Positions 15,201-46,770 of a stretch of 64,000 nt of DNA are shown piece by piece; the first letter of the stretch is position 1, and every line of letters begins with the position of its first letter. The notes under the pieces are model-generated. The model was not told the DNA's origin, made no database searches, and worked only from the letters and a program-made list of their open reading frames with translations. The position numbers and the translations under genes are program-made. The stretch is from Candidatus Wallbacteria bacterium (GTDB lineage: Bacteria; Muiribacteriota; UBA6191; JACPRK01), in contig JACPRK010000099.1 in the NCBI GenBank assembly GCA_016190005.1, positions 1-64,000 of the forward strand. The letters are read 5' to 3'.

Positions 15201-18200
15201 CCTATAGCAAGGGCACCTCCTTCGGGGAAGGGCTGGTCGACATCTTCGCCACGGCCACCGAGCCACTCTCCTCGACTCCGACGGTCACGATCACGGGCCG
15301 CTCCGGAAGCGCGGCGACCTTCAACAATCGCACCAACGCGCGCATGGAGCCCACAGCCGACGCCAAGAAGTTCGTTTACCACTATCGGGTGGAGACGGGT
15401 GACGATGGCGCCTTCCGGATCGCGCTGGGAGACGTGCTGGACTTCTCGGGGAACCCCCTTGGCGGCCTGAGTGGCGAGGACTTCACGATCGATTCGGCGC
15501 CGGGGGTCACGCTCACCTACAGCCAGCCAGGAGCGAAGTTCAAGAGCGCTCCTCTCACGATCACGGCCACCTTCGATGAGTCGATTTCCACGCCGCCCAG
15601 CCTGTCTGTCGGCTCGACGGCCAGCCCGGCCGCCAACCTCCTGTCGTCGAGCCCCATGTCGGCGACGATCGATCCTACCGTCTTCGTGTTCGTGTGGCCC
15701 GGCGGGGGACTCAAGCCCGAGGTCGACGGCCCTGGCGTGTCGTATGTCGTGACCATCAGTGGTGCCCAAGACGCCAGTGGGAACTCCAACGCGCCGGCCA
15801 GAAACGGCGCCTTCACGGTCGACTCGACCGCGCCGAAGGTTACCGCGTTCGGCGCCGACAAGCCCAGGCCTACTTCTGGGCTGCAGTTCACGGCTGTCAA
15901 CGAGGGGACGCTGCGGATCACGGCGACCTTCGACGAGCGCCTACAGCAGGCGCCCCAGCTGAGAATCGATCGCGTCGGAGGCGGCAGCGGCAATGAGCTG
16001 CCTTCCACGCCGATGTCCCTTGTGAGCGAGAGCGCCGATGGCGACCCCGATCCGTTCAGCACCTGGACATCCACGCACGACATCGTTTCGGGAGCGGACT
16101 CCCGAATGCGGGCCACGGCGGAAAACGCTGTCGATTCCGCCGGCAACACGAGCATCACAAGCTCCTTCGAGTTCGAGGTCGACACGGAGCTGCCCAAGGT
16201 GGACACAGTAGCCTACAGCCAGAGCCGCTTCGGCGTCACGAGTGGCCCGCTGACCCTGACGGTGACCTTCTCCGAACCGATCTTCCGGGCTCCGTACATT
16301 CAGCTCATCGCGAGAACGGCGGGCGATACGAGGAACGATCTCGGTCCCAGCTCGATGCAGCCTGTCGGATCCTATCCCACTCGAGACTTCACGTTCGCAC
16401 CCGAAGCCGGGATCGTGTCGGAAGTCCTCGCAGGAGTTGACTACGAAGTCCAGATCACCCAGGCGCTCGATCGTGCCGAAAACGGCGTAGTCGCCACCGA
16501 CGTCCCCGAGCGGTTCTTCTACGTCGACACACGCTGGCCCGAGGGAAGCATCGTCTTCGGAAAGACCCCGCCCGTCTTCACCCTCGGCGCCCGAACGATC
16601 ACGGCGACTTTCGTCGAGCCCCTTGCCGTGACGCCGAGCCTCCAGATCGTGGGCGGCGAGGCCTCGAGCGACGCCAACGATCTCACGCCGACATTCATGT
16701 CGGCCACGACCACCAACTCGGTCTGGATACTGGCGATCCCGGGCGGCATCGAGCTCGGAGACGACGGCTCCTTTGGGATCACCTTCACCGCCGGGGCAGA
16801 CTTCGCTGGGAACCCCCTCGTCGTCACCCCGACGGGTTCGTCCGTCTTCACTGTCGACACGGTCGCCCCTACTGTCACGGATATCACGTACACCCGACCC
16901 ACTTCGACCTTCACCAAGGTGAACGCGGGGCCGCTCGGCCTGACGATCACCTTCAGCGAGCCCTTGGTTGAGACGCCCACGATCAACATCTCGGGCGGCA
17001 CTTCCAGCACGCTCAACGATGAATCGGGCCCGATGTCGCCCACTTCCGACGCCGCCGTGTGGACCTTCGCCTATCCAGGGACCGGCGTGGTGCCTGGTGA
17101 CGAGGGCACCTTCACTGTCAACGTGGCGAGCGGAAAGGATGCCGCGGGCAACGCCAACTTGGCGCCTTCTCTTCCGAACGCCACGTTCAGCGTGGATACG
17201 TCCGCACCCGTGCTCGTATCGCTGGAGAAGAGCCGGCCGCTGCAGCCGTTCACGAAGGTTCGTCAGGATACTCTCGTCTACACGGCAACGTTCAACGAGC
17301 CGCTTGCGGTGGCGCCCGCGATCACGGTCACCGGCGGAGCCATCTCGGAGGGAAACCACGTGAGTGGCCAGTCGATGACGCGAGGTGCGATCGCCAGCGT
17401 CTGGACTTTCTCCCAGGACATCGGCTCGACCGACGACGGCCTGTTCAACGTCACCATCGCCGGCGGCCGAGACCAGGCCTCCAACGATGCGCTCGCGTCT
17501 ACACGTAACGCGTTCTTCGAGGTCGACACGCTGGCTCCGTCCGCGGTGGCGATCGCCTACAGCCGCGCGGGTACGAGTTTCGCCACGGGTGCCCTGACCC
17601 TGACGGTCACCTTCTCTGAGGCGATGGCCGTGACGCCGACATTGAAGATCTCCGGCGGAAGCAACGACAGCGGAGCCAACGACGTGGTGGACTTCATGAG
17701 GCCCGCAGCGTCGCCGCTCACCTGGACTTTCACGTATCCCAACCCAGGTCTGAAAAAGGGTGATGACGGCACTTTCCAGGTCACATTCCTCGGGGGCGAG
17801 GACATGGCCGGCAACCCGGTTGCGTTGTCACCCACGGCAAGTGGGAGCTTCGCCGTGGACACGGTCGAACCCGCGGTCTCTCTGACTTACGGCCGGTCGG
17901 GCAGGACTTTCCTGCGCGGCGTCGACGGTCGGCTGGCGATGAATGCGGGGCCTCTGACCATCACGGCGACGTTCACCAAGGAGCTTGTACGGTCACCGTC
18001 GATTGTGATCTCCGGCGGCCGTCTGGGCCCCGAAAATGATCGCCCGAGCACCGAGATGATTCAGGCCGGGACCGACAAGAAGGTCTGGACGTACAGCTAT
18101 CCGACCGGTCTGGTCGCCAACGACGACGGGATCTTCAATGTGGCGATCACGGGTGGCCGCGACGCCTCGGGAAATGCAAACCTCGCCGTTCAGGGAGTCG

Positions 18201-21200
18201 ATTCTCAATTCGTTGTGGATACGCGGCCGCCGGCGGTCGTAACGCTGGACCGGCCGACCCCCGTGACCCCCTTTAGCCGGGTCCGCCAGGGCGCAGCTCT
18301 ATATGCCGTAACCTTTGATGAGCCGATCGTGACCACACCCACGCTGTCGGTGGCCGGCGGCACGGCAACCAGCACCGCCAACGACCTGAACAGCCGCGAG
18401 ATGGAGCGGACTGTGACGACCACAGTGTGGGTCCTGGCTCACACTATCAAGACGGGCGATGATGGGACCTTTACGGTCTCCGTTGGCTCCGCCAACGACG
18501 TCGCCGGCAACACCAACCAGGCGCTCACGTCGAACAACACGTTTGTGGTGGACGCGACCGCTCCTACTGTCACGAACATCTCCTACGACAAGCCGGTGGC
18601 GCCGTTGACGCGCGTCACGACGGGTACGCTGAACATCACGGTGCTCTTCAGCGAGGCGCTCTCGGGCGGCGCGCCGGCCCCCGTGATGACCCTCTCCAGG
18701 CCAGGCGCCGCGCCGGACGTTCGCCCCATGACCGCCAGCGGCAACGCCGCTCAGTGGACCCTGGCATACACCGTGACGCGCGCGGCGGGATTGGTGCGGG
18801 ACGGGACCGTGGACTTGACGATCGACGCCTTCGACGGCGCGAACAACCCTGTCGTGTCCCCTTCGACTGGCGCAAGCTTCGAAGTCGACACACTCCCGGG
18901 TTCCGCCACGCTTTCCTACAGCGCTAGCGACAGCCAAAACGTGCCGCCCGGTCCGTTGCGGATCACAGCGGCCTTTACGGAGCCGCTGGCCGCTCCGCCC
19001 CAGATCGCGCTGGTCGGATTCCCGGGCGCCAACAACGTCGGCCCGCTCCGCATGACCGCCTCGGGAGATCCCGCGGTCTTCACCTTCGACACGACCATCG
19101 TGCGTGACAACCCGGGCATCTTCTCGGTTCTGCTGCTCGGCGCCCAGGACCTGGCGGGCAACGCCATCACTCAGTTCCAGAACGGCCAGATCAAAGTGGA
19201 CCCGAACGCTCCGGCGACGACTCTGCGATACAGCCGGGGCCCCAACGGCGTCACTAGCGGTCCGCTCACCATCACCGCCGAGTTCAGCAAGCCGATCGTC
19301 ACGACCCCGCTGATCAGCATCACGGGTCGCGCCGGCGACAACAACGTCGTCTCGCAGCCGATGACGCGCGTCGACACCTCCACGTTCCGCTTCGTCAAGG
19401 ACATCGGCACAGGCAACGACGGCCTCTTCACCGTCTCCGTCGCCGGCGCCAAGGACACGGCCGGCATCGACGCTGGCCCCCCGGCCGACACCACGCTGGT
19501 CGTCGACACGACGCCGCCTAGCGTCTCCATGGGTTACTCCCGGAATCCGCCCGTCTTCGGCGCCGCTACGGTCCGCGTCACGGCCACCTTCAGCGAGCCG
19601 ATTGCGTCGGGCGTGAGGCCCAGCCTTTCTCTCTTCCTCACCAGCGGTCTGCTCGTCGCCGAACCGCGGCAGATGACGGTCTCCACCACCCGAACCGTCT
19701 TCTTCTTCGACTTGCCCTTCGCCGCGGGCGAGGACGGCTTCTATGACATCTCCGTCGAGGGCGGCACTGACTTGGCCGGCAACGCAAACCTTGCGGCGAC
19801 CAACAACCGCATCGAGATCGACACGACCCCCCCGGGCGTCGTACTCGAGTACAACCGGCCTGTCTCCGCGGTTCCGTCAGGGCTGTTCGCCATCACCGCC
19901 ACCTTCACCGAACCGTTGACCTCGGCCCCCACGATCTCGATCGCAGGCCCGCCAGGCGCCAACAACCGGTTCGCGACGCCGATGACCCGAGCCGGCTCCG
20001 ACCTGATCTACACCTACGCGACCAACATCGTCCCGGGCAACAGCGGCGACTTCACTGTTGCCGTCTCCGACGCGCTCGACCGGGCCGGCAACTCCAACTC
20101 CGCGGCCGTCAACTCCGCCATCGACATCGTCGCCGCCAACGTGGCCGTCGCCTTCGTGTACAGCCGAGACCCGGCCGGCGTCCCCGCGGGTCCACTCACC
20201 CTCACGGCCTCCTTCGGCGGCGTGTTGAGTACCTTGCCGACTCTGTCCATTGCCGGACCGGCCGGTGCCAACAACGCCCAAGCGGCGTCGATGAGCGGCC
20301 CGGTTCCCGGTTCGGTCTTCGCCCTGACCCGCACCATCGTCGCCGGTAACGACGGCGCCTTCAATGTCTCGCTCGGCAACGTGCGCGACCAGCTCGGGAA
20401 CACCACTGTCTCCATCTCGGGCGGGCGCTTCACTGTCGACACCGTCCGGCCGACCGTTGCCCTCTCCTACGACAAGAACCTCGCGGCCGTCGGACGCGGG
20501 CCTCTCACCATCACCGCCCTCTGCTCCGAGCAGGTCGTCAACCGGCCCGTGCTCACTGTCACTGGCCCCGCCGGCCCGAACAACCGCTCGGCGTTGCCAA
20601 TGCTGGGGGCAGTGCCTGGAAACCTCTTCACCTTCGTTCTAGACGTCCAGGTCGGCAACGACGGGCTCTTCACCGCCGCCGTCAGCGGCGCTACCGACGT
20701 TGCCGGCAACGACAATCTGCCGGCCACCAATGCGACGTTCGTCGTCGCCACCGTGGCCCCCTCGGCTGTGCTGACTTACAGCGCCGACCCCGGCGGCATC
20801 GGCGCCGGAATGCTCACCCTGACCGCGACGTATGATCAGCCGCTGCTCGGCGCGCCCACGATCTCGATCGCGGGTCCGGCCGGCTCCAACAACCGATCGC
20901 CCGTCCAGATGACGCGGGTCGACTCCAGCAGCTACGTCTTCCTGCTTCCGGTGGTCACAGGCAACGACGGCTCATTCACCGCTACGCTTGCCGGCGCCAT
21001 CAGCGCCGCCGGTCTCTCGGGCACCGCCGTCTCGAACAACCGCTTCACGATCGACACGACCCCGCCCGTGCTGCTCGTCAGCGACCCGGCCGAAGGGCGG
21101 ACGGTTGGCACCCAGATCACGGTCGGCGGCAGTGTCTCGGATCTCACCTCGTCCGTGGTGCGCGTCAGCAGCCCAAGTGGCGTCTTCGCGACGGCTACTC

Positions 21201-23737
21201 TCGTGGTCAGCGCCGGCGCCTTCAGGGGCGTCGTCAACGTCAATCCGCAGGCTACGACGGTCGCCATCGAGCTCGCGCTCCAAGCCGTCGACCGCGCCGG
21301 CAACCGTTCGGACGTGATCACCCGGCGCGTGCGCTTCGACACGGACGGCGACGGCATGCCGGACGACTTCGAGTTCGCCGCCACGCTCGCCCGCACGAAT
21401 CAGGGCAGCGTCACGGGGCTCGACCCCAGCGCCGATGACGACTCCGACGGCCTCTCCAACCTGCAGGAGTACGCGGCCGGCACCGATCCCGAGAAGTCCG
21501 ATACCGACGACGACGGCGTCGCCGACGGCGCCGAAGTGCAGGCGGGCTCGGACCCGGCACGGGCCTCGGACAACCGGCCCACCGTGCTGGTCTCCACGGC
21601 TGCCCCGCTGGTCGATCCCGGCATCGTCGCTTTTGACGCCAGCAGGAGCTTCGATCCGCGCGGACGGACCCTCACCTATGCGTGGAGCCAGCTGACCGGC
21701 GAGCCGCCGGCCTCCAGTACCCGCTTCCAGGCCACGGCGGCGAAGGCCGTCGCGCTGGCCGATCTGACGGCCGCCGGCGAGTACACCTTCGCCGTGTCGG
21801 TCGGAAACGGATCCACCTTCCGGGTGCCGCCCACCAGCACCGTGGGCGTTGCTATCCGCGACTTGCCGCCGCGTGCGCGGGCTGGCTTGAAGCGCTCGCT
21901 CTCGCTTACCGGCGAGACGACCCGCGCTGTGCTCGACGGCGGCCGGTCATTCGACCCCAACGGAGACACTGTGTCGTATTCGTGGCTGATGACGAAGAAC
22001 CCGGGCTTCGGCGCCACGCTCGTCTCAGGCGCGGACACGGCATCCCCCGTGATCGACTTCCGACTGCCCGGGGCCTACGAGGCGACGTTGACCGTCCGCT
22101 CGCGCTCGGCCACGGCGCAGGGGACCGGCACGCTCTCTGCTAGCGAGGGCGTCGTCATCCTGGTCGGGAGCCCGACGGCCCGCGTACCCATCGCCAGCGC
22201 GGGCATCGATCAAGAGGTGCTGGCCCTGGGAAGCACGGTCGATGAGCTGGTCAACCTCTTCGGCCGCGACAGCGTCGATCCTGACCGGCCGACCACTGAT
22301 CCCACCCGCCCGACACTCGAGTTCCAGTGGCGGCAAGTCTCCGGCCCGATCGTGGCTGTGGCCGACCGCATCGGCGACGCTCGTGGGCAGTCTGCCTCGG
22401 ATGCCTACCGGAGCGTCGACCCGACCGTGCACCTGACCGCGGCGGGCGAGTACGTGTTTGGGTTGACGGTCCGCAAGCGCTTCGGCGCGGGCGTGCTCGG
22501 GCTCGAGAGCGCCGAGGACACCGTGACCGTCAAGGTGCTCAGGTTGCAGATCTCGGTGAACAAGCCCCCACGTTCCAACGCCGGGTTCGACCGGCTCATC
22601 GGCGGGTTCGACGTCAATCAACCACCGCGCGTCATCCTGAACGGGAGCGGCTCGTCCGATCCCGACCAGGCGTCCGAGACTCTGCGGTTCCGCTGGAATC
22701 AGGAGCGGTTCGACCAGCAGGACCTGACGCCCGAGATCATGCTCTCCGATTCGTCGTCCGCCAGACCCGAATTCGTGCCTCCTGCGCCCGGCAACTACCG
22801 ATTCCGGCTGATCGTCACGGACAACGGCGGCATCGACAGCTTGCCGGCGTTCGTCAACGTGCAGGTTGTCTCGGCGGCCCGGCCTCTCCCGCCCGTCATC
22901 GGCACGGTCTCGGCCATGGACGCCGATGGCGTTGCCTTCAACTTCGCTCGTCCGGCGCAGATCACTACCGGCACCACTCCCGTCATCTTCTTGCAGGCGC
23001 AGGCGACCGACCCCTCCGGCGCCGCGCTCTCCTACCGCTGGGTGCAGGACCGCGAATCCTCGACTGCGGCGACTGTGACGCTCGACAGTGACGAGACGGC
23101 CCGCGCCTCCTTCCGGCCGCTGGTGTCGGGCGTCTACGCCTTCAAGCTGCTGGTCTGGAACGGCGAGCTCTCCTCGGAGTCCCGCGTGACGGTCCCCGTC
23201 GACGACCTGCGGCCCGGCAAGAATGCCGGTCTCACACCCGTCATCCAGCTCACGAACACAGTCGTCAACGTCGGCGGCGCTTCCGGCGGTACGATCGTCA
23301 TCGACGCCGGCTCGACCTTCGACCGGGATTCGCGCATTGCCGGTCGCGTCGCGGGAGTCATCACCTACCTCTGGCGGCAGATTTCCGGCCCCGTGCGGCT
23401 CACGTTCGACCGCTCCGCGTCCAGCATCAGCCTCTCGCTCGAGAGCGGCGCCGTCGGCACCTACGTCTTCGAGGTTGTGCTCGACGACGGTCAGGACGCC
23501 GTGGTCCAGCAGGTTTCGTTCAAGACCACGGTCGATTCGACCGGCGGCACTCCGCCCCCCGACAGCGGCGGGACCACTCCTCCCGCATCCGTCGTCGAAG
23601 CCGGTGGCGGTGGCGGAGGCTGCGCAATGGGCGCCGCCGGCGGGTCACCTACTGCATTGCCCGACCTGCTCGTGCTCCTCGCCGGGTTCGTCGGCGCCGC
23701 CACGGCCCGCCGGCGGCGCCGGGGTGGCACGGTCTGA
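6248..23737 (+). CDS. Giant secreted protein, about 39 Ig-like repeats, PKD-like domains, C-terminal sorting tail
   Basis: A 5,829-residue protein. A signal peptide ends near SASAQ (residue 45). A unique module (about 48-330) precedes bacterial Ig-like repeats of 95-125 residues with the pattern APTVTLTYS..., GPLTITATFSEPL, TPTISISGG and DAAGN. The unique module recurs at about 1335-1610 with its following repeats. Later repeats (about 4218-4940) share an IAGPAGANNR loop. Calcium-type Asp-rich motifs (DTDGDGMPDD, SDTDDDGVADG) lie at about 5032-5100, and PKD/REJ-like domains at about 5115-5770. The C-terminus is a poly-Gly run, Cys5792, a hydrophobic helix and RRRRR, as in JDVT-CTERM and MYXO-CTERM substrates. 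Probably a cell-surface adhesin or stalk-like filament; ligand unknown. One uninterrupted frame, start GTG. Confidence 0.9.
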   Translation: MSEKTEIVAVRGRLFASHPVQRYGARSLLTLVGLTLLTCASASAQTTYNKSVGVLVTGTGQSLLRQSMNVVAFNKTKGVKAGEASPVKLNDTATVSVPLNGVSDGNVIEFYITSILRSDASVSDAYFKTEVPVSVVDITTAIPNVTLTDPSGELSTLAGSVYNVSGSIVPGVRVMATVIRDQSDVPLSLTGALSYEQAFPDTAVTQTLAERFPGAFSIGLVGPVAAGDSVRLSEVYDQSSGTPTPLGEMCSEGTNADDPAENCKAVPILVPIDPTTLAWQGSTSGDTTRSRLIEAADLNTGGSIRMDFLDPNTFVIFTYSQTSNPFTQTTLNERIVGKGSLNITATVYNEFLALGPNFVNNASNRFLLEPLAVTPVLNIDRMLGTGDQACCLPMSQVIGKPYMYTATYDVEESDRAGIRDGLTVVTLKNAVDFGGNSLTSQTSMKNSTFVAVTVPPRVSSITYSKGNSENPPHLPSGAFTISVTFDERITQTIAPVITIRDSSGTITATANPGSNLQYNRDDIANNTSLFTYPLQTALAAGTYSINITKARNLLGAEIDPADITPTNPNFVVDTTTANAAFTYSRAQPFTKGPVTITATFDQKVTNPTIQIDRGGTGNDIPTTLMTSTCGNSNIPCLVWSYNYDIAPANGSTVTDVTATITITNATNEIGNASAPITTTFTLDTRPTYTLTYSKASLQYKAETFRITAVFSDDVKPGPARITITGGNVGGLPVTNSTEITQSNPTDFKTWVFSRTIAAGDAPTNPESRDITLGVPSSADVALQASNTRFTVDTKAPALTTVTFNKPSQVYKGGDTLVVTGVFSEDITPVAPAITITGGNVGAATVTGEPMAPGASPVTWTYSAVVSASDASGTRDITISGLDAAGNPSGVPPTPSRITIDNASPTILDFKFNKPSQIYKAESFDVTFTFDEPLGTTPTITISGGNLDGLPVTNASMLGGGRDWYLVRTIRSTDGNGLRSILVTAVDVAGNSAILSPDGSDFTVDTRAPTVSLVYSKASRAYGASQMFGITASFSEDLSTPPTLTISGGKVGDSDVNNETLFQGGDAATWFLPDIAIASTDTTGDRTLDIGAVDDAGNVAQQPSNATFSIDTDLPTLTVTFGKPTASPFTGISAGNLAITADYNKNLVIAPQISINRQGTGNDVIPPVEMQQINPKKWVFTYAVASADGATIFDGDADLRIDTGADAADNTAAFSKTLEIDTAAPTVSLSYSRANPILTAGSLVVTATFNEPVFTSPTISMVGPAGVNNQSLTMVAVAPGPISATSWQATLTIAEGNDGGFTVDVSAGKDRAENSNLPPTSNNVVVVRTAEIPPRTVPFKILNSLSGDSSRRQNMRIRLYNETALAEEPNPVTNVRLAEVRSMALTKAVTGDVLHFYIDSIRTADGTPSPALFDTGATVTVPDLGTAIETQTVNDPTSEIPTLKGFLRNQSGQNVLSTPVDVMVHHFEPGSATFTGVVQQTFTHTQTGVTQGNRDLFPGTYSFTKVGPVTFGDALRLTLRRQPDVLGAPVTPTVPDPDPLCLAAGGPCVPAAVASPDPSDVAGAGANQGAYLDVDSALSRAIGPNDLTPGSTVRMNFIDSHLFVGLTYSKDRTLVDAGLLRITATFYNSSRFFDNNLLQLEPTATTPTLVIDRNGSGDTPCCYEMRRAVIGDPSVWVADYTVAVANRTTLLDGLAVVRIENAIDYAVNSLPSAGFTTHTTFETLTVPAKATLAFSKGRSDLDPPSVPAAPFTITVTFDQQITQASRPKITITSSNSIPSINDVTAKDLVLVSASKNQSVFTYNYTPSAVDGLGKSLAGTYLVNPTQAFNLVGLENDKTPVQPLFTLDTKRATPTLRYSQSGAVVTTVKAGEVLITAIFDEPVEGPVIEIDRQPIGSGLNDVLTTPMDNSCPGGLCDEWTFKYNVIPQTGPTSNIRDGTASVTIRNGINRVGNTSTEPALNRTFDIDTTAPKVTSIEAIPEFVGAGTDNLAYRVTFDEAMSTTLLPTISVRRPGTAPADLVTLQPGAIPTQFQGTMDVLQAGAIPGLQDGPPANSVSVVSAVDLAGNAVAPFTASAGTVFTTQVATTLDFSPPKASYAASDTVRISATFARAPVLGIGAAPPALVVNRPAPDGLTSPRTVVLVPVGATPTALVWVGTYDVTPTGGETLLDGTATVDLAVQDQVGNPASILGRSTFELDGTRPFVDVTLSPASPVTTGPLTITARFQKKQGGFEEPLFTTPTVSITADPLTCPTNSGGNVQGPKQMRQLIAGDPTAWVASFDITTTNDGCFVLHVEGGTDGSGNPNVDPAKPFQILTNGPRVSLTYSRPQLAVPQGNLTITASFDSAVAADATPTIAIASDLSTVAFKNTVPATPMDVAAGPQRLTFTFTYSIESGEDGPFRVTIDNARDAAGNINRKPPENDVFIVRTSAPSVFLDYSQDGRLNPPALHAGTATITATFTEAITPSAPTVTIAGPAAVPPGTLMAGISPSAVWTYPWTIPPAPVDATSTISVRGRNASNVENTLPPLRDSIRVDTIAPAVTLTYSPGTVDKPGVPVVTTGPLVIQAAFTEPLAQTPTLFLEMGAETITDFAYSSADGQYWTASRSIVSGHVNGVYQVRVTGAQDLAGNATAEPVPNRDLRIDTQRPSVKTVLTFSKITSRPIGTGALTVTATFDEPLKVTPVFRILQIRPASGRLLPGTAVATGSDTSFAATFTLGGADEGDWRVSATNGLDFAGNQNQEIDLGQGPVFTVDTTELSAGLLYKPLTLGLTHHSAITPFPITVTFNKPVVNQPLIHISGGAASTLNDVASAQLSAAGSPTSSGQTVFLYAHRLVAGDDGSFDVTLTTARDKSLNLVDPPVTNGAFRVDATTPTVQLTFSKDRTHPLSAGLLTITATFTEPLVVTPHIAILGANPSDASNDQPDVEMSPTSNPAVWAFPKAITATAGGIDDDLFTVTVSQGRDKGGNQPAAPTGVTYRVDTVRPNVAISYSKGTSFGEGLVDIFATATEPLSSTPTVTITGRSGSAATFNNRTNARMEPTADAKKFVYHYRVETGDDGAFRIALGDVLDFSGNPLGGLSGEDFTIDSAPGVTLTYSQPGAKFKSAPLTITATFDESISTPPSLSVGSTASPAANLLSSSPMSATIDPTVFVFVWPGGGLKPEVDGPGVSYVVTISGAQDASGNSNAPARNGAFTVDSTAPKVTAFGADKPRPTSGLQFTAVNEGTLRITATFDERLQQAPQLRIDRVGGGSGNELPSTPMSLVSESADGDPDPFSTWTSTHDIVSGADSRMRATAENAVDSAGNTSITSSFEFEVDTELPKVDTVAYSQSRFGVTSGPLTLTVTFSEPIFRAPYIQLIARTAGDTRNDLGPSSMQPVGSYPTRDFTFAPEAGIVSEVLAGVDYEVQITQALDRAENGVVATDVPERFFYVDTRWPEGSIVFGKTPPVFTLGARTITATFVEPLAVTPSLQIVGGEASSDANDLTPTFMSATTTNSVWILAIPGGIELGDDGSFGITFTAGADFAGNPLVVTPTGSSVFTVDTVAPTVTDITYTRPTSTFTKVNAGPLGLTITFSEPLVETPTINISGGTSSTLNDESGPMSPTSDAAVWTFAYPGTGVVPGDEGTFTVNVASGKDAAGNANLAPSLPNATFSVDTSAPVLVSLEKSRPLQPFTKVRQDTLVYTATFNEPLAVAPAITVTGGAISEGNHVSGQSMTRGAIASVWTFSQDIGSTDDGLFNVTIAGGRDQASNDALASTRNAFFEVDTLAPSAVAIAYSRAGTSFATGALTLTVTFSEAMAVTPTLKISGGSNDSGANDVVDFMRPAASPLTWTFTYPNPGLKKGDDGTFQVTFLGGEDMAGNPVALSPTASGSFAVDTVEPAVSLTYGRSGRTFLRGVDGRLAMNAGPLTITATFTKELVRSPSIVISGGRLGPENDRPSTEMIQAGTDKKVWTYSYPTGLVANDDGIFNVAITGGRDASGNANLAVQGVDSQFVVDTRPPAVVTLDRPTPVTPFSRVRQGAALYAVTFDEPIVTTPTLSVAGGTATSTANDLNSREMERTVTTTVWVLAHTIKTGDDGTFTVSVGSANDVAGNTNQALTSNNTFVVDATAPTVTNISYDKPVAPLTRVTTGTLNITVLFSEALSGGAPAPVMTLSRPGAAPDVRPMTASGNAAQWTLAYTVTRAAGLVRDGTVDLTIDAFDGANNPVVSPSTGASFEVDTLPGSATLSYSASDSQNVPPGPLRITAAFTEPLAAPPQIALVGFPGANNVGPLRMTASGDPAVFTFDTTIVRDNPGIFSVLLLGAQDLAGNAITQFQNGQIKVDPNAPATTLRYSRGPNGVTSGPLTITAEFSKPIVTTPLISITGRAGDNNVVSQPMTRVDTSTFRFVKDIGTGNDGLFTVSVAGAKDTAGIDAGPPADTTLVVDTTPPSVSMGYSRNPPVFGAATVRVTATFSEPIASGVRPSLSLFLTSGLLVAEPRQMTVSTTRTVFFFDLPFAAGEDGFYDISVEGGTDLAGNANLAATNNRIEIDTTPPGVVLEYNRPVSAVPSGLFAITATFTEPLTSAPTISIAGPPGANNRFATPMTRAGSDLIYTYATNIVPGNSGDFTVAVSDALDRAGNSNSAAVNSAIDIVAANVAVAFVYSRDPAGVPAGPLTLTASFGGVLSTLPTLSIAGPAGANNAQAASMSGPVPGSVFALTRTIVAGNDGAFNVSLGNVRDQLGNTTVSISGGRFTVDTVRPTVALSYDKNLAAVGRGPLTITALCSEQVVNRPVLTVTGPAGPNNRSALPMLGAVPGNLFTFVLDVQVGNDGLFTAAVSGATDVAGNDNLPATNATFVVATVAPSAVLTYSADPGGIGAGMLTLTATYDQPLLGAPTISIAGPAGSNNRSPVQMTRVDSSSYVFLLPVVTGNDGSFTATLAGAISAAGLSGTAVSNNRFTIDTTPPVLLVSDPAEGRTVGTQITVGGSVSDLTSSVVRVSSPSGVFATATLVVSAGAFRGVVNVNPQATTVAIELALQAVDRAGNRSDVITRRVRFDTDGDGMPDDFEFAATLARTNQGSVTGLDPSADDDSDGLSNLQEYAAGTDPEKSDTDDDGVADGAEVQAGSDPARASDNRPTVLVSTAAPLVDPGIVAFDASRSFDPRGRTLTYAWSQLTGEPPASSTRFQATAAKAVALADLTAAGEYTFAVSVGNGSTFRVPPTSTVGVAIRDLPPRARAGLKRSLSLTGETTRAVLDGGRSFDPNGDTVSYSWLMTKNPGFGATLVSGADTASPVIDFRLPGAYEATLTVRSRSATAQGTGTLSASEGVVILVGSPTARVPIASAGIDQEVLALGSTVDELVNLFGRDSVDPDRPTTDPTRPTLEFQWRQVSGPIVAVADRIGDARGQSASDAYRSVDPTVHLTAAGEYVFGLTVRKRFGAGVLGLESAEDTVTVKVLRLQISVNKPPRSNAGFDRLIGGFDVNQPPRVILNGSGSSDPDQASETLRFRWNQERFDQQDLTPEIMLSDSSSARPEFVPPAPGNYRFRLIVTDNGGIDSLPAFVNVQVVSAARPLPPVIGTVSAMDADGVAFNFARPAQITTGTTPVIFLQAQATDPSGAALSYRWVQDRESSTAATVTLDSDETARASFRPLVSGVYAFKLLVWNGELSSESRVTVPVDDLRPGKNAGLTPVIQLTNTVVNVGGASGGTIVIDAGSTFDRDSRIAGRVAGVITYLWRQISGPVRLTFDRSASSISLSLESGAVGTYVFEVVLDDGQDAVVQQVSFKTTVDSTGGTPPPDSGGTTPPASVVEAGGGGGGCAMGAAGGSPTALPDLLVLLAGFVGAATARRRRRGGTV

Positions 23738-34862: not shown

Positions 34863-35010
34863 GGTCCCGTGACTCGCGACACGCGAGATCCCGCTCGGTG
34901 AGCGGCATGACGCGGCATGCAGACGTTGACTTTGCGAGCGCCGGATGGTAGCATCGCGGGACGCTTCGAGCGCGAGAGTCCGGGCCAACAGCGGTGGGAG
35001 GAGGAGTGCG

Positions 35011-36507
35011 ATGGCGGCAGCGTACGGGAACTTCATCAATGGTAAGTGGATCACGAAGGGCTCCAGGGGGACCTTCGAGAACCGTAGTCCCGCCGATCCG
35101 TCGGACGTCATCGGCATCTTCCCGGAGTCCGGCCACGAGGAGATCGAGGCGGCCGTTCGCGCCGCCTCGGAAGCCTTGCCGGCCTGGAGCCGCACGCCGG
35201 CCCCCCGCCGCGGCGAGATTCTTCGGCGCGTGGGCGACCTGCTCGGCAAGCACAAGGACGAGATCGCCAAGCTCGCCACGCGCGAGATGGGCAAGGTTCT
35301 GGCCGAAACTCGCGGCGACGTTCAGGAGGGGATCGACTGCGCCTACTACTACGCCGGCGAAGGCCGCCGCATGTTCGGGCAGACCGTGCCGACCGAGCTT
35401 CCGAACAAGTTCGGCATGTCGATCCGCCGCCCCATCGGCGTGGCCGGTCTGATCACTCCCTGGAACTTCCCTCTCGCCATCCCGACCTGGAAGTCCTTCC
35501 CCGCCCTCATCTGCGGCAACACGCTGGTCCTGAAGCCCGCCGAGGACAGCCCGGCGACCGCTGTCAAGTTGATGGAAATCTTCGAGGAGGCCGGGGTCCC
35601 CAGGGGTGTGGTCAACCTGGTGCACGGCGACGGGCCCAACACGGGCGCGGCGCTCGTGAAGCACGAGAAAATCGGAGTCATCAGCTTCACCGGCTCCAGC
35701 GACACCGGTCGCGAGATCGCCCGGCTGACGGGCGGTTCGCTGAAGCGGTGCTCGCTAGAGCTGGGCGGCAAGAACGCCCAGATCGTGATGGAGGACGCCG
35801 ATCTCGACTTGGCCATCGAGGGGGCCCTCTGGGGCGCCTTCGGGACAACGGGCCAGCGCTGCACGGCTACCAGCCGGTTGATCGTGCACAAGAAGGTCGC
35901 CTCCGAGCTGACCGGCCGCCTGGTCGAGCAGGCCAAGAAGCTCAAGCTCGGCAACGGTCTGGAGGAGTCGACGCAGGTCGGGCCGCTGGTCAACAAGACC
36001 CAGCGCGAGCGGGTCGCCGGCTACTGCAAGGTCGGCCAGGAGGAAGACGGCGCCAAGGTGCTCCTGGGCGGCAAGGCGCCGGGCGGGAAGCTGTCGAAGG
36101 GCTACTTCTTCGAACCGACGGTCTTCGCCGGCGTCACGCCGAAGATGCGGATCTTCCAGGAGGAGATCTTCGGGCCGGTCATCGGCATCGTCGAGGTGAA
36201 GTCCTTCGAGGAGGCGATCGCGGTGTTGAACGACAGCCGCTACGGCCTCTCGTCCAGCATCTACACGAAGGACGTCAACCGTGCTTTCAAGGCCATCGAG
36301 CAGATCGAGGCCGGCATCACTTACATCAACGGCCCCACCATCGGCGCCGAGGTCCACTTACCCTTCGGCGGCGTGAAGGACACCGGTAATGGCCACCGCG
36401 AGGCCGGCACCACCGGTCTGGACATCTTCAGCGAGTGGAAGGCCGTCTACGTCGACTACAGCGGCAAGCTGCAGAAGGCGCAGATCGACACGCATCCCGA
36501 CGACTGA
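35011..36507 (+). CDS. NAD(P)-dependent aldehyde dehydrogenase
   Basis: A 498-residue protein with complete ALDH motifs: TPWNFPLAIPTWK (cofactor-binding Asn and Lys), FTGSSDTGREI, catalytic Glu250 in LELGGKN, nucleophile Cys284 in GQRCTATSR, and EEIFGPVIGI. It oxidises an aldehyde to the acid. The next gene, 113 bp downstream, is a class III aminotransferase, which suggests joint catabolism of an omega-amino acid such as lysine, GABA or a polyamine product, with the aminotransferase making the semialdehyde. The exact substrate is not readable from sequence. ATG 35011 has GGAGGAGGAG just upstream. Confidence 0.9.
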   Translation: MAAAYGNFINGKWITKGSRGTFENRSPADPSDVIGIFPESGHEEIEAAVRAASEALPAWSRTPAPRRGEILRRVGDLLGKHKDEIAKLATREMGKVLAETRGDVQEGIDCAYYYAGEGRRMFGQTVPTELPNKFGMSIRRPIGVAGLITPWNFPLAIPTWKSFPALICGNTLVLKPAEDSPATAVKLMEIFEEAGVPRGVVNLVHGDGPNTGAALVKHEKIGVISFTGSSDTGREIARLTGGSLKRCSLELGGKNAQIVMEDADLDLAIEGALWGAFGTTGQRCTATSRLIVHKKVASELTGRLVEQAKKLKLGNGLEESTQVGPLVNKTQRERVAGYCKVGQEEDGAKVLLGGKAPGGKLSKGYFFEPTVFAGVTPKMRIFQEEIFGPVIGIVEVKSFEEAIAVLNDSRYGLSSSIYTKDVNRAFKAIEQIEAGITYINGPTIGAEVHLPFGGVKDTGNGHREAGTTGLDIFSEWKAVYVDYSGKLQKAQIDTHPDD

Positions 36508-36620
36508 GGCCGCCCGGCGCGGTCCCAGCTCGCCACCGGATCGCCTCGAGCGCGCCCGCCTCGAGGGGCATCCGAGTCCCATTTCTCACACCTCCCAACC
36601 TCAGGAACAGGGTGATTCCC

Positions 36621-37982
<1,362 letters not shown>

Positions 37983-37986
37983 GTCC

Positions 37987-38379
37987 GTGGGGCGCCTGAC
38001 CGGCCGACCCGCCGCGCTCATCGTCGACGACTCCCAGTTCATCTGCAGGATCCTGGCGAAGAGCCTGCTCGACTACGGCTTCCGGCTCGTAGCGCTCGCG
38101 GCGAGCTGCGAGGAGGCGCTGGTCCAGACCTCCGCCTTCTCGCCCGATCTGATCACGCTCGACCTGGTGCTGCCGGACGGCAACGGCTTCGAACTTTTCG
38201 GAAGGCTGCGGGAGGCGCGGCCGGGCGCGCAGATCGTGATCGTGAGCGACCTTCGCCAGGTCGAGAACTTCGACCGGGCCAAGGAGATCGGCGCCGCCGC
38301 GTTCCTCAGCAAGCCGTTCCAGGAGACCCAGCTGGTGCAGCTGCTCCAGCGGTTGGATCTGGGGGCGGCGAAGCCGTAG
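37987..38379 (+). CDS. Single-domain response regulator
   Basis: A 130-residue CheY-like receiver with no output domain. Visible are the acidic pair in LIVDDSQF, phosphoacceptor Asp59 in LDLVLPDGNG, IVSDLRQ, and Lys in FLSKPF. It is predicted to be phosphorylated by a histidine kinase and to act through protein contact. It starts at GTG four bases after the aminotransferase stop, so it is probably co-transcribed with it. Its last 74 bp overlap the 3' end of the hydrolase gene on the opposite strand. A hybrid kinase lies 5 kb away, but a link is only a guess. Confidence 0.85.
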   Translation: MGRLTGRPAALIVDDSQFICRILAKSLLDYGFRLVALAASCEEALVQTSAFSPDLITLDLVLPDGNGFELFGRLREARPGAQIVIVSDLRQVENFDRAKEIGAAAFLSKPFQETQLVQLLQRLDLGAAKP

Positions 38380-39169
38380 CGTCCGGGCCGTCCAGGAACT
38401 CGGTCACGATCGACTCGAAGAGGGCTGGGTACTCCAGGTTTGGGCAGTGACCGCAGTCTCGGAAGACCTCCAGGCGTGCGCCGGGAATCCAGGCGCGTGC
38501 CAGCAGCGGTTGCAGCGGTGACACGATGCGGTCCCGATCGGCGCCGATGGCCAGCGTCGGACAGGCGATCAGCGCCAGGTCCCGGCGGTCGCCGTCGTGG
38601 GTGAGCGCGTGCAGGGCCAGCCGGGCTGTCGCCGGGCTTGCGCGGCCCGCGACGGCGAGCACGTCCTCCGGGACGCCCACGGCGTACGAGAAGAAGGGGG
38701 CCGAGATGCGCCGCGCGGCGTCGACGCCCAGGAGCCCCGTGGCGATCCACCGGGCCCACCCCCAGCGAGCGAGCATGCAGACGGGCGAGAGCGCCGTGCG
38801 TCCCTCGAGCGCGGCGGTCACGAGGACCAGTTTGCGGACCAGCGCAGGCTCCGCGGCGGCCAGCCGGGCGGAGACCATTCCGCCCATCGAGTGGCCCACC
38901 AGAAACACCGGTCCGCCGCCCACACCGCGGATGAAGTCTGCCAGCCGGTGGGCCTGCTGATAACTCGTGGCGCCCTCGCGCGCGACGCAGGAGGAGAGGC
39001 CGAACCCGGGCAAGTCGACGGTCAGCACGCGGTAACGTGCCGCGAGGGCCTCGGCCGTCGAGCGCCAGTAGACGGAGCTCACCGGCCAGCCGTGCACCAG
39101 AACCAGCGTCGGTCCCGACCCGCGCTCCTCGTAGTGAATCTCGGCGTCCGAGACACGAAAACTCGCCAT
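38306..39169 (-). CDS. Alpha/beta hydrolase (soluble)
   Basis: A 287-residue protein with the classic alpha/beta hydrolase order: LVHGWPVSS (oxyanion), LPGFGLSS, GHSMGGMVSA (nucleophile Ser), GADRDRIV (acid Asp region) and a His in DCGHCPNLEYP. There is no signal peptide. It resembles epoxide hydrolase/haloperoxidase-type enzymes, but the substrate is unknown. The C-terminal 25 residues (Pro/Ala/Gly-rich) are encoded opposite the response regulator end and look like a read-through extension of a normal domain. It is divergent from the gene at 39289. Confidence 0.85.
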   Translation of the reverse strand: MASFRVSDAEIHYEERGSGPTLVLVHGWPVSSVYWRSTAEALAARYRVLTVDLPGFGLSSCVAREGATSYQQAHRLADFIRGVGGGPVFLVGHSMGGMVSARLAAAEPALVRKLVLVTAALEGRTALSPVCMLARWGWARWIATGLLGVDAARRISAPFFSYAVGVPEDVLAVAGRASPATARLALHALTHDGDRRDLALIACPTLAIGADRDRIVSPLQPLLARAWIPGARLEVFRDCGHCPNLEYPALFESIVTEFLDGPDATASPPPDPTAGAAAPAGSPGTAC

Positions 39170-39288: not shown

Positions 39289-39909
39289 ATGGACGACCAG
39301 AGGTTGAGGCTCAAGCGGCGGCTGCAGGAGTTTCAGCTCGAGCGGCTCAAGGGAACGTACGAGGATTTCCTGGCAGGGTCGCCTTACGAATCGCTCTGCG
39401 GATTCTTCACGACTCATCTCTACAATGCGCAGGACTTCACGGCCCGCAATGAGAGCTTCAAGAAGCTGGTGCACGCCTTCGAGTCGGCTTTCGGAACCGA
39501 GGTCTTGCACAGCATCTCGCTGTTGCTGGACGTGCACGATCTCTCAGAGAGGCTCGACGACGACGTGGTGGAGCAGTTCGTGAAGATGGGCGTGGGGCTC
39601 GACTTCGACATGGCCGCCTACGAGCGCGCCTACTTCGTCGCCGACAAGTACCCCGAGCGGGAGCGCCAGATCGAGATGCTGGTCGACGCGGTCCACATCG
39701 TCCACCGGATTGCTTTCTTTCCGTTCATCGGGTTTCTGCTGAAGACCCTCTACGCCGGCGCGCTGATGATCGGCGCGACGCCGATGGTGCAGTTCCTCCA
39801 GGACGGCTATGACGCCTTTCGCACGGTGAAGGACCCGACCCCATTCACGAAGGCGATCCACGATCGGGAGATGGAGCGCCTCGACCGGATATACGGAGTC
39901 AAGAAATGA
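39289..39909 (+). CDS. Hypothetical helical protein coupled to the reductase-like gene (FFLEE/DUF8198-like?)
   Basis: A 206-residue, mostly helical protein. The N-terminal part (RLQEFQLERLKGTYEDFLA, then FFTTHLYNAQDF, then LHDLSERLDDDVVEQF-like text) recalls a small proteobacterial family with an FFLSDLYG motif that I associate with the FFLEE/DUF8198 name; this is memory-based and uncertain. The second half has a hydrophobic stretch FFPFIGFLLKTLYAGALMI, possibly membrane-associated. It overlaps the downstream reductase-like gene by four bases (ATGA), so the two products are probably partners. No catalytic motif is seen. The start is uncertain, as no strong Shine-Dalgarno is present. Confidence 0.6.
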   Translation: MDDQRLRLKRRLQEFQLERLKGTYEDFLAGSPYESLCGFFTTHLYNAQDFTARNESFKKLVHAFESAFGTEVLHSISLLLDVHDLSERLDDDVVEQFVKMGVGLDFDMAAYERAYFVADKYPERERQIEMLVDAVHIVHRIAFFPFIGFLLKTLYAGALMIGATPMVQFLQDGYDAFRTVKDPTPFTKAIHDREMERLDRIYGVKK

Positions 39910-42020
39910 AACGAGTCGTTTGCATCAGCCTGGGACCGTCGAGCCAGGACCGCACCTTCGTCGTCCGACTGCTGGACCAGGAGATCCAGGTCGAGAAGCG
40001 GGGGACCGACGGCGACCTGCAGCGGGCAGCGGAGCTCATCGAGAAGCTGGACGGTCAGGTGGCGGCCTTCGGACTGGACAGCATGAACCGGACCTTCGTC
40101 GTCGGGAAGAAGACGTGGCTGCACGAGGAGATCGACATGCTGGCGCGTCGGGCCCACTCCACGCCCGTCGTCGACGGCTCGGAGCTCAAGCGCACGCTGG
40201 AACGGTGGGCCGTGGCGCAGATGGAGCGCCAGTTTCCGGAGCTCTTCCGCGGAAAGCTCGTCTTCGTGCCGAGCGGCGTCGATCGGTACGGCATGTCGAC
40301 CGTGCTCCAGAACGCCGGCGCTCGGCTGGTCTTCGGTGACGTCATTTTCCACTGGGGGCTGCCGTGGGCACTCAAGAGTCTCTCGCAGCTGGAGACCTAC
40401 TCGCGGCTGGCGATGCCCTATCTCTGCGGCCGCCCCTACAAGTCGATGTACCCCGTGGGCCGCCGTCAGGAAGAGCAGCGGCCGCTCGGCACTCACTGGT
40501 TCGAGGAAGCCGACATCATCGCGGGCAGCCTCCATTACATCCGCCGCTATGCCCCCGATTCGCTCTACAACAAGGTGGTCATCACCAACCAGCTCCAGAG
40601 CGAGGATCTGGACGACCTGCGCCGCCGCGGCGTGAGGATGGTGCTGACGACCACGCCCGAAATCGACGGCGAGTCCTTCGGCACCAACGTGCTGGAGGCG
40701 ATATTCGTCGCGTTACTCGACAAGCCCTTCGCCGAGATCCGGCTCGACGACTACCTCAACCTCATCCCCAGGACCGGCATCCAGCCGCGCGTGGTCTACC
40801 CGCAGGGCCAGCCGGTCGACGTGGAGAAGTTCGCCTTCGTCATTCACCCGCTGACCGCCAAGGACATCTTCAAGCACCCGTTGCTCAAGTACCTGAAGTT
40901 CCTGCCTGAGCGCTGGGTGGAGTGGCTGGTGGCGTTCTCGCCGGTGATGCTCCTGAGCCACGTGACCGGCGCGCGCTCGGCCACGGGCCGGGAGCTCGAG
41001 GGGTGGCTGCTGGGTCTGGGCGCAACGCCCAAGGAGATGATGACGCGGAATCCGGAGTTCACGTACCGCAAGCTGTTGCGGGCCGCCGAGATCGCCGAGG
41101 GACTGGGCGCGAAGATCATGGGGCTGGGCGCCTTCACCAGCATCGTGGGCGACGCCGGCGTGACGGTGGCCAAGCGGGCCAACATCGCGATCACCTCGGG
41201 GAACAGCTACACGGTCGCCTCCACCCTGGAGGCCGCCAAGACCGTGGCGCGCCGCATGGGCCACGACTTGACCAGCGGCGTCGCCGCGGTCGTCGGGGCG
41301 ACGGGCAGCATCGGAGCGGTCAGCGCGCGGCTAGTGGCGCAGGTGGCGCGCAAGGTGATCCTGGTGGCGCCCCGGCCGGAGAAGCTGCTGGAGTTGCAGG
41401 AGAAGATCCAGTCCGAGTCGAATGCGGAGGTGGTGATCGCCACGGAGGCGCTCGACTGGCTGGTCGACGCCGACCTGATCATCACCACCACGACTGCCCG
41501 CGGCGGCAAGATCATCGACATCGAGAAGGTGAAGCCCGGCTGCGTGATCTGCGACGTGGCCCGTCCGCTCGACATCCAGGAATCCGATGCCCGCAAGCGG
41601 CCCGACGTGCTGGTGATCGAGAGCGGCGAGCTGGAAGTCCCGGGGCCCGTCGACTTCCACTTCAACATCGGTCTGCCGCCGAAGACGGCTTACGCCTGCC
41701 TGTCCGAGACGATGATCCTCGCGATGGACGGCCGCTACGAGAGCTTCACGCTGGGCCGCGAGATCGAGATGGACAAGGTCAAGGACATCTACAAGATGGG
41801 CAAGAAGCACGGCTTCAAGCTGGCGGCCATCCGCAGCTTCGGCCGGGTCGTGACCGACCAGGAGATCCGGCTGGTCCGGGAGCACGCCGACGACGCGAGG
41901 CGCCGACGCAAGATGCCGGTCCCACCTGCCCTTCCGGAGCTGGACGAAGCGCCCTCGGTCGTGCCGGAGACTGCCGCGCCGCCCGCCCGTGAGTCGGGTC
42001 CGAGGGCAGAAATGCCTTGA
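39906..42020 (+). CDS. Acyl-ACP reductase-like (COG5322-type) dehydrogenase with large N-terminal domain
   Basis: A 704-residue protein. The C-terminal part (about 330-660) follows cyanobacterial long-chain acyl-ACP reductase block by block: LGAFTSI, ITSGNSYTVASTLEA, the nucleotide loop GATGSIG at about 464, VILVAPRPEKLLELQ, AYACLSETM and MGKKHGFKL. Cys598 aligns with the catalytic Cys of the cyanobacterial enzyme (FACFAEAM). It may reduce an acyl thioester to an aldehyde with NAD(P)H. The N-terminal 320 residues (PSGVDRYGMSTVLQNAG, ADIIAGSLHYIRRYAP) match no domain I can name. The C-terminus is an Ala/Pro-rich tail. It is coupled to the preceding gene; its stop overlaps the -35 box of the phasin promoter. 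Confidence 0.75.
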   Translation: MKRVVCISLGPSSQDRTFVVRLLDQEIQVEKRGTDGDLQRAAELIEKLDGQVAAFGLDSMNRTFVVGKKTWLHEEIDMLARRAHSTPVVDGSELKRTLERWAVAQMERQFPELFRGKLVFVPSGVDRYGMSTVLQNAGARLVFGDVIFHWGLPWALKSLSQLETYSRLAMPYLCGRPYKSMYPVGRRQEEQRPLGTHWFEEADIIAGSLHYIRRYAPDSLYNKVVITNQLQSEDLDDLRRRGVRMVLTTTPEIDGESFGTNVLEAIFVALLDKPFAEIRLDDYLNLIPRTGIQPRVVYPQGQPVDVEKFAFVIHPLTAKDIFKHPLLKYLKFLPERWVEWLVAFSPVMLLSHVTGARSATGRELEGWLLGLGATPKEMMTRNPEFTYRKLLRAAEIAEGLGAKIMGLGAFTSIVGDAGVTVAKRANIAITSGNSYTVASTLEAAKTVARRMGHDLTSGVAAVVGATGSIGAVSARLVAQVARKVILVAPRPEKLLELQEKIQSESNAEVVIATEALDWLVDADLIITTTTARGGKIIDIEKVKPGCVICDVARPLDIQESDARKRPDVLVIESGELEVPGPVDFHFNIGLPPKTAYACLSETMILAMDGRYESFTLGREIEMDKVKDIYKMGKKHGFKLAAIRSFGRVVTDQEIRLVREHADDARRRRKMPVPPALPELDEAPSVVPETAAPPARESGPRAEMP

Positions 42021-42144: not shown

Positions 42145-42522
42145 ATGGCTACCCAAACCAAGGACACGGCTCGGGGAGAGGGGAATCCCTGGGTCAACCA
42201 GATCCGCAACGTCCTGCTGGCAGGAGTCGGCGCGGTCGTGCTCGCCCAGGAGGAGCTCGAGGACTTCGTCGGCAAGCTCGTCAAGAAGGGCGAGATGGCC
42301 GAGAAGGACGGCAAGAAGCTCCTGGGCGATATCCTCGCCCGCCGCAAGCGCCAGGCGAAGAGGGACATCGGCTCCATCGAGAGTACCCTCGCCTGCCGCA
42401 TCGAAAACGCCCTGCATAGCGTCCGGCTGGTCAGCAAGAAGGATGTCGACCAGCTCTCCAACCAGATCGACGCCCTGGCCGCCGAGGTCGATCGGCTCGC
42501 CCGGGATCACCGCGCCCACTGA
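42145..42522 (+). CDS. Phasin family protein (polyhydroxyalkanoate granule-associated)
   Basis: A 125-residue protein with the phasin PhaI/PhaF layout: an amphipathic N-terminal helix (NQIRNVLLAGVGAVVLAQEE), a basic linker (ARRKRQAKRD) and a C-terminal helix LVSKKDVDQLSNQIDALAAEV of the kind that forms coiled coils. Phasins coat storage granules. A spaced operator-promoter and AAGGAGG just before the ATG support a well-expressed gene. The PhaR-type gene follows after 20 bp. No PHA synthase is in the window, so granule identity is inferred; some phasin-like proteins have other roles. Confidence 0.75.
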   Translation: MATQTKDTARGEGNPWVNQIRNVLLAGVGAVVLAQEELEDFVGKLVKKGEMAEKDGKKLLGDILARRKRQAKRDIGSIESTLACRIENALHSVRLVSKKDVDQLSNQIDALAAEVDRLARDHRAH

Positions 42523-42542: not shown

Positions 42543-43256
42543 ATGAGAATCATCAAGCGCTACGCCAACCGAAAGCTCTACGACACCAGCGTCCGCCGCT
42601 ACATCAATCTCGTGGAGATCGCCGAGCTCGTCCAGAAGGGCTCGGAGGTCAAGGTCGTCGACAGCAAGACCGGTGAGGACATCACCAAGGTCACCCTGTC
42701 TCAGATCCTCCTCGAGAAGGAGAAGCGCAAGCAGGGCTTCGTCCCCAAGACGCTCTTCGCCAACCTGATCCGCAAGGGAGGAACCTCGATCGTGGATTAC
42801 GTCAAGAGATCCGCCAAGGGCGGCCTCGGCTTCATCCACTGGGCCGAGGACGAAATCGACAAGGGCGTCAAGAAGCTCGTGCACGCTCGCCAGATCACCG
42901 AGTCCGAGGCCAAGCGCCTCCGCGAGGACATCGTCCACCGGCTGCTCCGCACCAAGGAGGACTGGGAGAAGGCGATCGACGATCGCATCCAGTCGATGCT
43001 CCATCGCCTCAACATCCCCGCCCAGCGCGACATCGTCAGGCTCACCGAGAAGCTCTCGGTGCTGGCCAGGAAGGTCGAGTCGCTCAACGGCAAGGCCAAG
43101 AAGTCTCCGTCGGCAGCCAAGCCCGCCGTCGCCGTCAAGGGCGTCGTGCGCCGCAAGGTCGCCACGAAGAAGGCGGGCCGCGCCCGCGTCGAGGCGATCG
43201 GTGTCACCGGCGGCTCGCACGGCACCGTCGAGAAGGCCGACGAGAAGGCGTCGTAA
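42543..43256 (+). CDS. PhaR-type DNA-binding domain fused to a phasin-like region and basic tail
   Basis: A 237-residue protein. Residues 1-62 are a PHB/PHA accumulation regulator DNA-binding domain: IIKRYANRKLYDTSVRRYI, VDSKTGEDITKVTLSQILLE. Residues of about 66-185 are helical and phasin-like, with the LNIPAQRDIVRLTEKLSVLA coiled-coil signature. The last 50 are Lys/Ala-rich, like the histone-like tail of PhaF. PhaR proteins sense PHA and repress phasin genes; here sensor, granule binder and nucleoid-binding tail appear in one chain. It is the likely regulator of the palindrome at 42026-42044, though the known PhaR site differs. Co-transcribed with the phasin. Confidence 0.8.
   Translation: MRIIKRYANRKLYDTSVRRYINLVEIAELVQKGSEVKVVDSKTGEDITKVTLSQILLEKEKRKQGFVPKTLFANLIRKGGTSIVDYVKRSAKGGLGFIHWAEDEIDKGVKKLVHARQITESEAKRLREDIVHRLLRTKEDWEKAIDDRIQSMLHRLNIPAQRDIVRLTEKLSVLARKVESLNGKAKKSPSAAKPAVAVKGVVRRKVATKKAGRARVEAIGVTGGSHGTVEKADEKAS

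Positions 43257-43494: not shown

Positions 43495-46770
<3,276 letters not shown>

Follow-up and report, generated by a model that had tools for sequence, protein, structure and literature searches.

A probable two-domain acyl-thioester reductase with an FFLEELY-motif partner, a candidate source of fatty aldehydes or alcohols for stored lipids in Chloroflexota and a Wallbacteria-labelled lineage

A gene resembling the fatty acyl-ACP reductase (AAR) of cyanobacteria, found in another lineage and next to phasin genes, raises the question of which product it would deliver and to which lipid. The gene was analysed in a window of 64,000 nucleotides (the whole stretch of DNA studied) from a groundwater bacterium that bears the NCBI label Ca. 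Wallbacteria. Two open reading frames of the plus strand, coding for a 206-residue protein, P0001 (39289-39909), and a 704-residue fused reductase, P0002 (39906-42020), share the ATGA at 39906-39909, where the stop of the first gene overlaps the start of the second, an arrangement compatible with translational coupling. The high GC3 of the fused frame (0.92) indicates that it is coding. In the window genus, the fused protein has homologues of 99% (G001) and about 90% identity (G002, where the contig ends inside the gene), and in both genomes the gene for the small protein lies directly 5' of the fused gene with the same spacing. On the same strand follow the genes of a phasin-like protein of 125 residues (42145-42522; PF05597, E=8.2e-14) and of a PhaR-like regulator of 237 residues (42543-43256; PF07879, E=7.9e-26). 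The overlapping pair, the phasin genes next door and, within the window, the lack of a visible aldehyde decarbonylase had all been part of the original prediction and were borne out. On the other side, an alpha/beta hydrolase gene (38306-39169, minus strand; PF12697/PF00561) diverges from the pair and its membership in the system is uncertain. In 15 Chloroflexales loci, the gene that follows the fused one also codes for an alpha/beta hydrolase; the equivalence of the two hydrolases was dropped, their similarity being weak (E 0.01).

The C-terminal half of the fused protein had been matched to the cyanobacterial acyl-ACP reductase. The domain extends over residues ~306-665 (40821-41900); residues 344-642 match the PDB entry 6jzq of AAR (E=8.5e-23) and residues 346-659 the PigE entry 4ppm (E=1.9e-30). 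Against the canonical AAR model TIGR04058, the protein scores 96.5 bits (E=1.9e-27) for a cutoff of 449.7, and its best NCBIfam match, PigE NF053554, reaches 196.8 bits for a cutoff of 850 and covers the reductase part only. Since both scores lie below their cutoffs, the protein should be regarded as a superfamily member and as neither of the named equivalogs. Judged by its sequence, the C-terminal domain belongs to the AAR/PigE-type thioester reductase superfamily and is not a canonical cyanobacterial AAR; what stood of the earlier assignment is the superfamily, the catalytic Cys and the nucleotide loop. Cys598 (codon 41697-41699) aligns with the acyl-acceptor Cys of AAR in the alignments to 6jzq and 4ppm and, like Glu601, is invariant in 63/63 relatives. 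In the nucleotide loop G464-A-T-G467-S-I-G470 (GxxGxxG; 41295-41315), G464 and G467 are conserved in all 63 relatives and G470 in 60 of them, and T430, G432, N433 and T436 are likewise invariant. The same Cys, the GxxGxxG motif and an acyl-Cys/hydride mechanism are described for PtTamH, an AAR-like thioester reductase fusion acting on fatty acyl thioesters (PMC9594044). With the cyanobacterial AAR (TIGR04058; 6jzq/6jzy), the domain thus has in common the reductase fold family, the catalytic Cys, the nucleotide loop and, presumably, the conversion of acyl-ACP into aldehyde, but the window protein adds an N-terminal domain of 297 residues and a partner protein, and no aldehyde-deformylating oxygenase is seen alongside. 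PigE and PtTamH, the closest NCBIfam and PDB matches, are fusions as well, and one of their halves is a reductase of the AAR superfamily; the other is a PLP aminotransferase, whereas in the window protein it is an unnamed domain of dehydrogenase fold.

For this N-terminal part, a domain of 320 residues without a name had been predicted. Residues 1-297 (39906-40796) gave no family in Pfam, in NCBIfam or by PDB sequence search, and the boundary lies nearer 300. The AlphaFold2 model, confident at a pLDDT of 95.6, shows two lobes of a dehydrogenase-like fold. A Foldseek search with this model retrieved the folds of malic enzyme, glutamate dehydrogenase, AAR and the carmabin TAD, and the TM-scores with AAR and TAD (0.46-0.48) were the highest among the listed matches. 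In the alignment columns, the glycine loop and the reductase Cys are absent from the N domain, and D90, G91, D145 and G207 are strictly invariant (71/71). An origin of the N domain by tandem duplication of the AAR domain was rejected, the resemblance being one of fold alone and the profile-profile comparison of the two halves (hhalign) giving 0.3%. The N domain is, as far as its sequence tells, a separate family that is unnamed in Pfam and NCBIfam. It might nevertheless be a degenerate AAR-fold pseudoenzyme that scaffolds a pseudo-dimer, in which case the aldehyde would be the sole product; the leading TM-scores of AAR and TAD and the loss of both the glycine loop and the Cys are in agreement with such a role. 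The profile-profile comparison, which finds no homology between the halves, speaks against it, as do the four residues, whose invariance suggests a ligand or active site. We hold the pseudoenzyme to be doubtful but worth serious consideration, and it is compatible with a function in lipid storage. The alcohol-forming fatty acyl reductase MA-ACR, used for fatty alcohol production, has two domains as well, with the thioester reductase at the C-terminus, but its N domain is described as an aldehyde reductase (PMC8492656), whereas that of the window protein is devoid of the glycine loop.

The 206-residue protein had been described as helical. Its AlphaFold2 model is all alpha (pLDDT 88), and its family is already named: residues 10-202 match NF047641, "FFLEELY motif protein", with 158.3 bits for a cutoff of 55. 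No PDB fold matched the model at E<=0.001, and no paper on the "FFLEELY motif" turned up in the literature searched. A ferritin-like aldehyde oxygenase was rejected, as an alignment of 29 sequences lacks any invariant His, an ExxH motif and other di-iron signatures and no PDB fold was matched. Weak phmmer matches to plant sesquiterpene synthases (E 0.04) disappeared with a profile, and a Pfam EF_TS match (E 0.16) was discarded.

The system had been noted as lying outside cyanobacteria; it is not unique to the window lineage: the fused protein has at least 567 relatives and the fusion is common in Chloroflexota. Among 80 named loci, the N and AAR-type domains are fused mainly in Chloroflexota, and also in the window lineage, and in Bacillota, Armatimonadota and Abditibacteriota the N domain is encoded by a gene of its own beside that of the AAR-type domain. 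In a sample of 382 genomes, an AAR-like match is present in 35 of the 39 genomes with an N domain; the two domains are fused, adjacent or co-occurring. In the tree, the Chloroflexota fusions group with the window protein in a single clade of 61 rows (SH-aLRT 90, the starred level being 95), the window branch sitting outside Chloroflexota, and the fusions L072/L135 and L005/L145/L141 fall elsewhere.

The FFLEELY protein follows the fused form closely. In a set of 221 Chloroflexota genomes, filtered at 85% completeness, the fused protein and an above-cutoff FFLEELY protein occur in the identical 22 genomes, from families f247, f68, f302, f297 and f310, and FFLEELY is found in 0/21 of the remaining genomes with a P0002 match, whose genes are unfused (Fisher p about 1e-30, uncorrected for kinship). 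In the 49 genomes holding named loci, FFLEELY was detected in 33/40 with a fused gene, being undetectable in the other 7, and in 0/9 with split genes. The NF047641 cutoff was passed in 7 of the 382 sampled genomes, six of which have a main-clade fused protein. The predicted conservation of the two-gene pair is therefore very strong as co-occurrence, but adjacency is confined, among the loci examined, to the window genus; the window partner, a clear member of NF047641, differs from the rest of its family in this respect. The seventh genome (G184) lacks the fused reductase, and its FFLEELY gene is flanked by hslVU-like and ubiE-like genes (L117:6168-6920); the genome also has matches to the wax ester synthase WS/DGAT, which suggests a wider role of FFLEELY in neutral lipids.

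Does the phasin neighbourhood recur as well? In seven Chloroflexota loci, phasin and/or PhaR-like genes were found no more than about 4 kb from the fused gene. PF07879 proteins were confirmed by Pfam in three of them (L048, L051, L090) and by similarity in L070 and L102; in L074 and L085 the sole visible phasin-like ORF is end-truncated. The genomes of L048, L051, L070 and L090 (G402, G405, G420, G425) have WS/DGAT and no credible PhaC. Furthermore, in three genomes of one Chloroflexales genus (G506, G610, G638), a fused paralogue and a WS/DGAT gene have 4 bp (ATGA) in common, the WS/DGAT gene of G610 matching PF03007, PF06974 and TIGR02946. WS/DGAT is absent from most sampled Chloroflexales carrying only the type-A fusion, and no consistent lipid gene surrounds the FFLEELY genes in the Chloroflexota neighbourhoods examined. 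In the window genus, no WS/DGAT (PF03007) was found in three genomes, 73-83% complete (G000-G002), and a PhaC-like gene is present, with a score of 242 bits that lies below the cutoff of 365; the window phasin may therefore serve PHA, and the PHA-granule parts matched in the window are the phasin PF05597 and PHB_acc_N.

On balance, these data make it somewhat probable that the operon encodes a two-domain acyl-thioester reductase with a helical helper, supplying fatty aldehyde, or perhaps alcohol, for a neutral storage lipid. No published biochemistry was found on any family member, and we infer the steps as follows. The AAR-type domain would take an acyl chain from acyl-ACP (or acyl-CoA) onto Cys598, and its reduction of this thioester by NAD(P)H would yield a fatty aldehyde. 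The N domain would work on the same acyl/aldehyde flux, by a second reduction to alcohol or by carrier docking or regulation, and the fused form specifically would depend on the FFLEELY protein. The product would feed a neutral storage lipid, of wax-ester type where WS/DGAT is present and possibly another in the window organism, and the phasin and PhaR-like proteins would manage the granule.

The aldehyde or alcohol could instead serve membrane lipids or signalling, as ether lipids or long-chain alcohols, phasin and PhaR being an independently placed PHA module. This is unlikely in our opinion: the PhaC-like synthase without detected WS/DGAT in the window genus and the pairs of AAR and N-domain genes of Bacillota and Armatimonadota, without WS/DGAT in the tested genomes, are compatible with it, but the phasin/PhaR linkage recurs in Chloroflexota with WS/DGAT and without credible PhaC, and the WS/DGAT operon of G506, G610 and G638 also argues for storage. 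A service of the AAR-type domain in secondary metabolism, as in PigE and TamH (aldehyde for transamination or condensation), is quite improbable, for although PigE is the best NCBIfam match, an aldehyde dehydrogenase (34945-36507) and a class III aminotransferase (36435-37982) lie upstream and the genome has a separate aminotransferase-AAR fusion, the PigE score is far under its cutoff, no biosynthetic cluster can be discerned, the widespread reductase with its conserved fusion and FFLEELY is not cluster-like, and the TamH-like layout is already present in that other ORF.

The latter (L002:4-2337; G000:C132, match 9347-10084) is a second AAR-like ORF with a class III aminotransferase followed by an AAR-type part, as in PtTamH, and by analogy may form fatty amines. 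The upstream genes of the window (34945-37982), an aldehyde dehydrogenase and then an aminotransferase of acetylornithine/4-aminobutyrate type, lie just before the FFLEELY/reductase pair, and a homologue of this aminotransferase is near FFLEELY in a Roseiflexus locus (L204).

In keeping with the storage reading, wax esters are reported from Roseiflexus and Chloroflexus (PMC4400912). The known wax-ester fatty acyl reductases are FarA, AcrB, Acr1 and FcrA, none described as AAR-type (PMC11948995), and no paper naming the wax-ester alcohol reductase of Chloroflexus or Roseiflexus was found in the open-access literature, most subscription journals being outside the search. FcrA, the proven reductase for wax esters in the Chloroflexota member Ca. 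Promineifilum breve, resembles the window protein in having an N-terminal extension, but it is described as an HMGR homologue, not of the AAR family, which converts acyl-CoA into alcohol in four electrons (PMC11948995). FcrA thus speaks against the fused protein being the exclusive reductase of this kind, and in a MAG labelled Promineifilum (L099) both the fused gene and FFLEELY are present as well. The recurrence of fusion and FFLEELY points to an undescribed route to fatty aldehydes or alcohols for stored lipids. That it represents a new class of alcohol-forming, acyl-ACP-dependent reductase (AAR, dehydrogenase-fold domain and FFLEELY helper), making the alcohols of wax esters in Chloroflexota and in the lineage labelled Wallbacteria, separate from FarA, AcrB, Acr1 and FcrA, is conceivable but rather doubtful. 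The fused reductase is nonetheless a concrete candidate, with a partner protein, for the wax-ester alcohols of Chloroflexus and Roseiflexus; a likely function is attached to two families, NF047641 and the N-terminal domain, and a conserved acyl-ACP reductase fusion with its helper could serve the engineered production of fatty aldehydes or alcohols.

Two further genes of the window were recorded. A hybrid sensor kinase (43495-46770; MASE1, CHASE, HisKA, receiver, Hpt) is encoded directly 3' of the PhaR-like gene. PKD, bacterial TSP3 and Sde0182-type domains occur in the C-terminal half of an ORF of 5829 residues (6248-23737, plus strand), whose first 2900 residues gave no Pfam match; it is a candidate giant surface protein.
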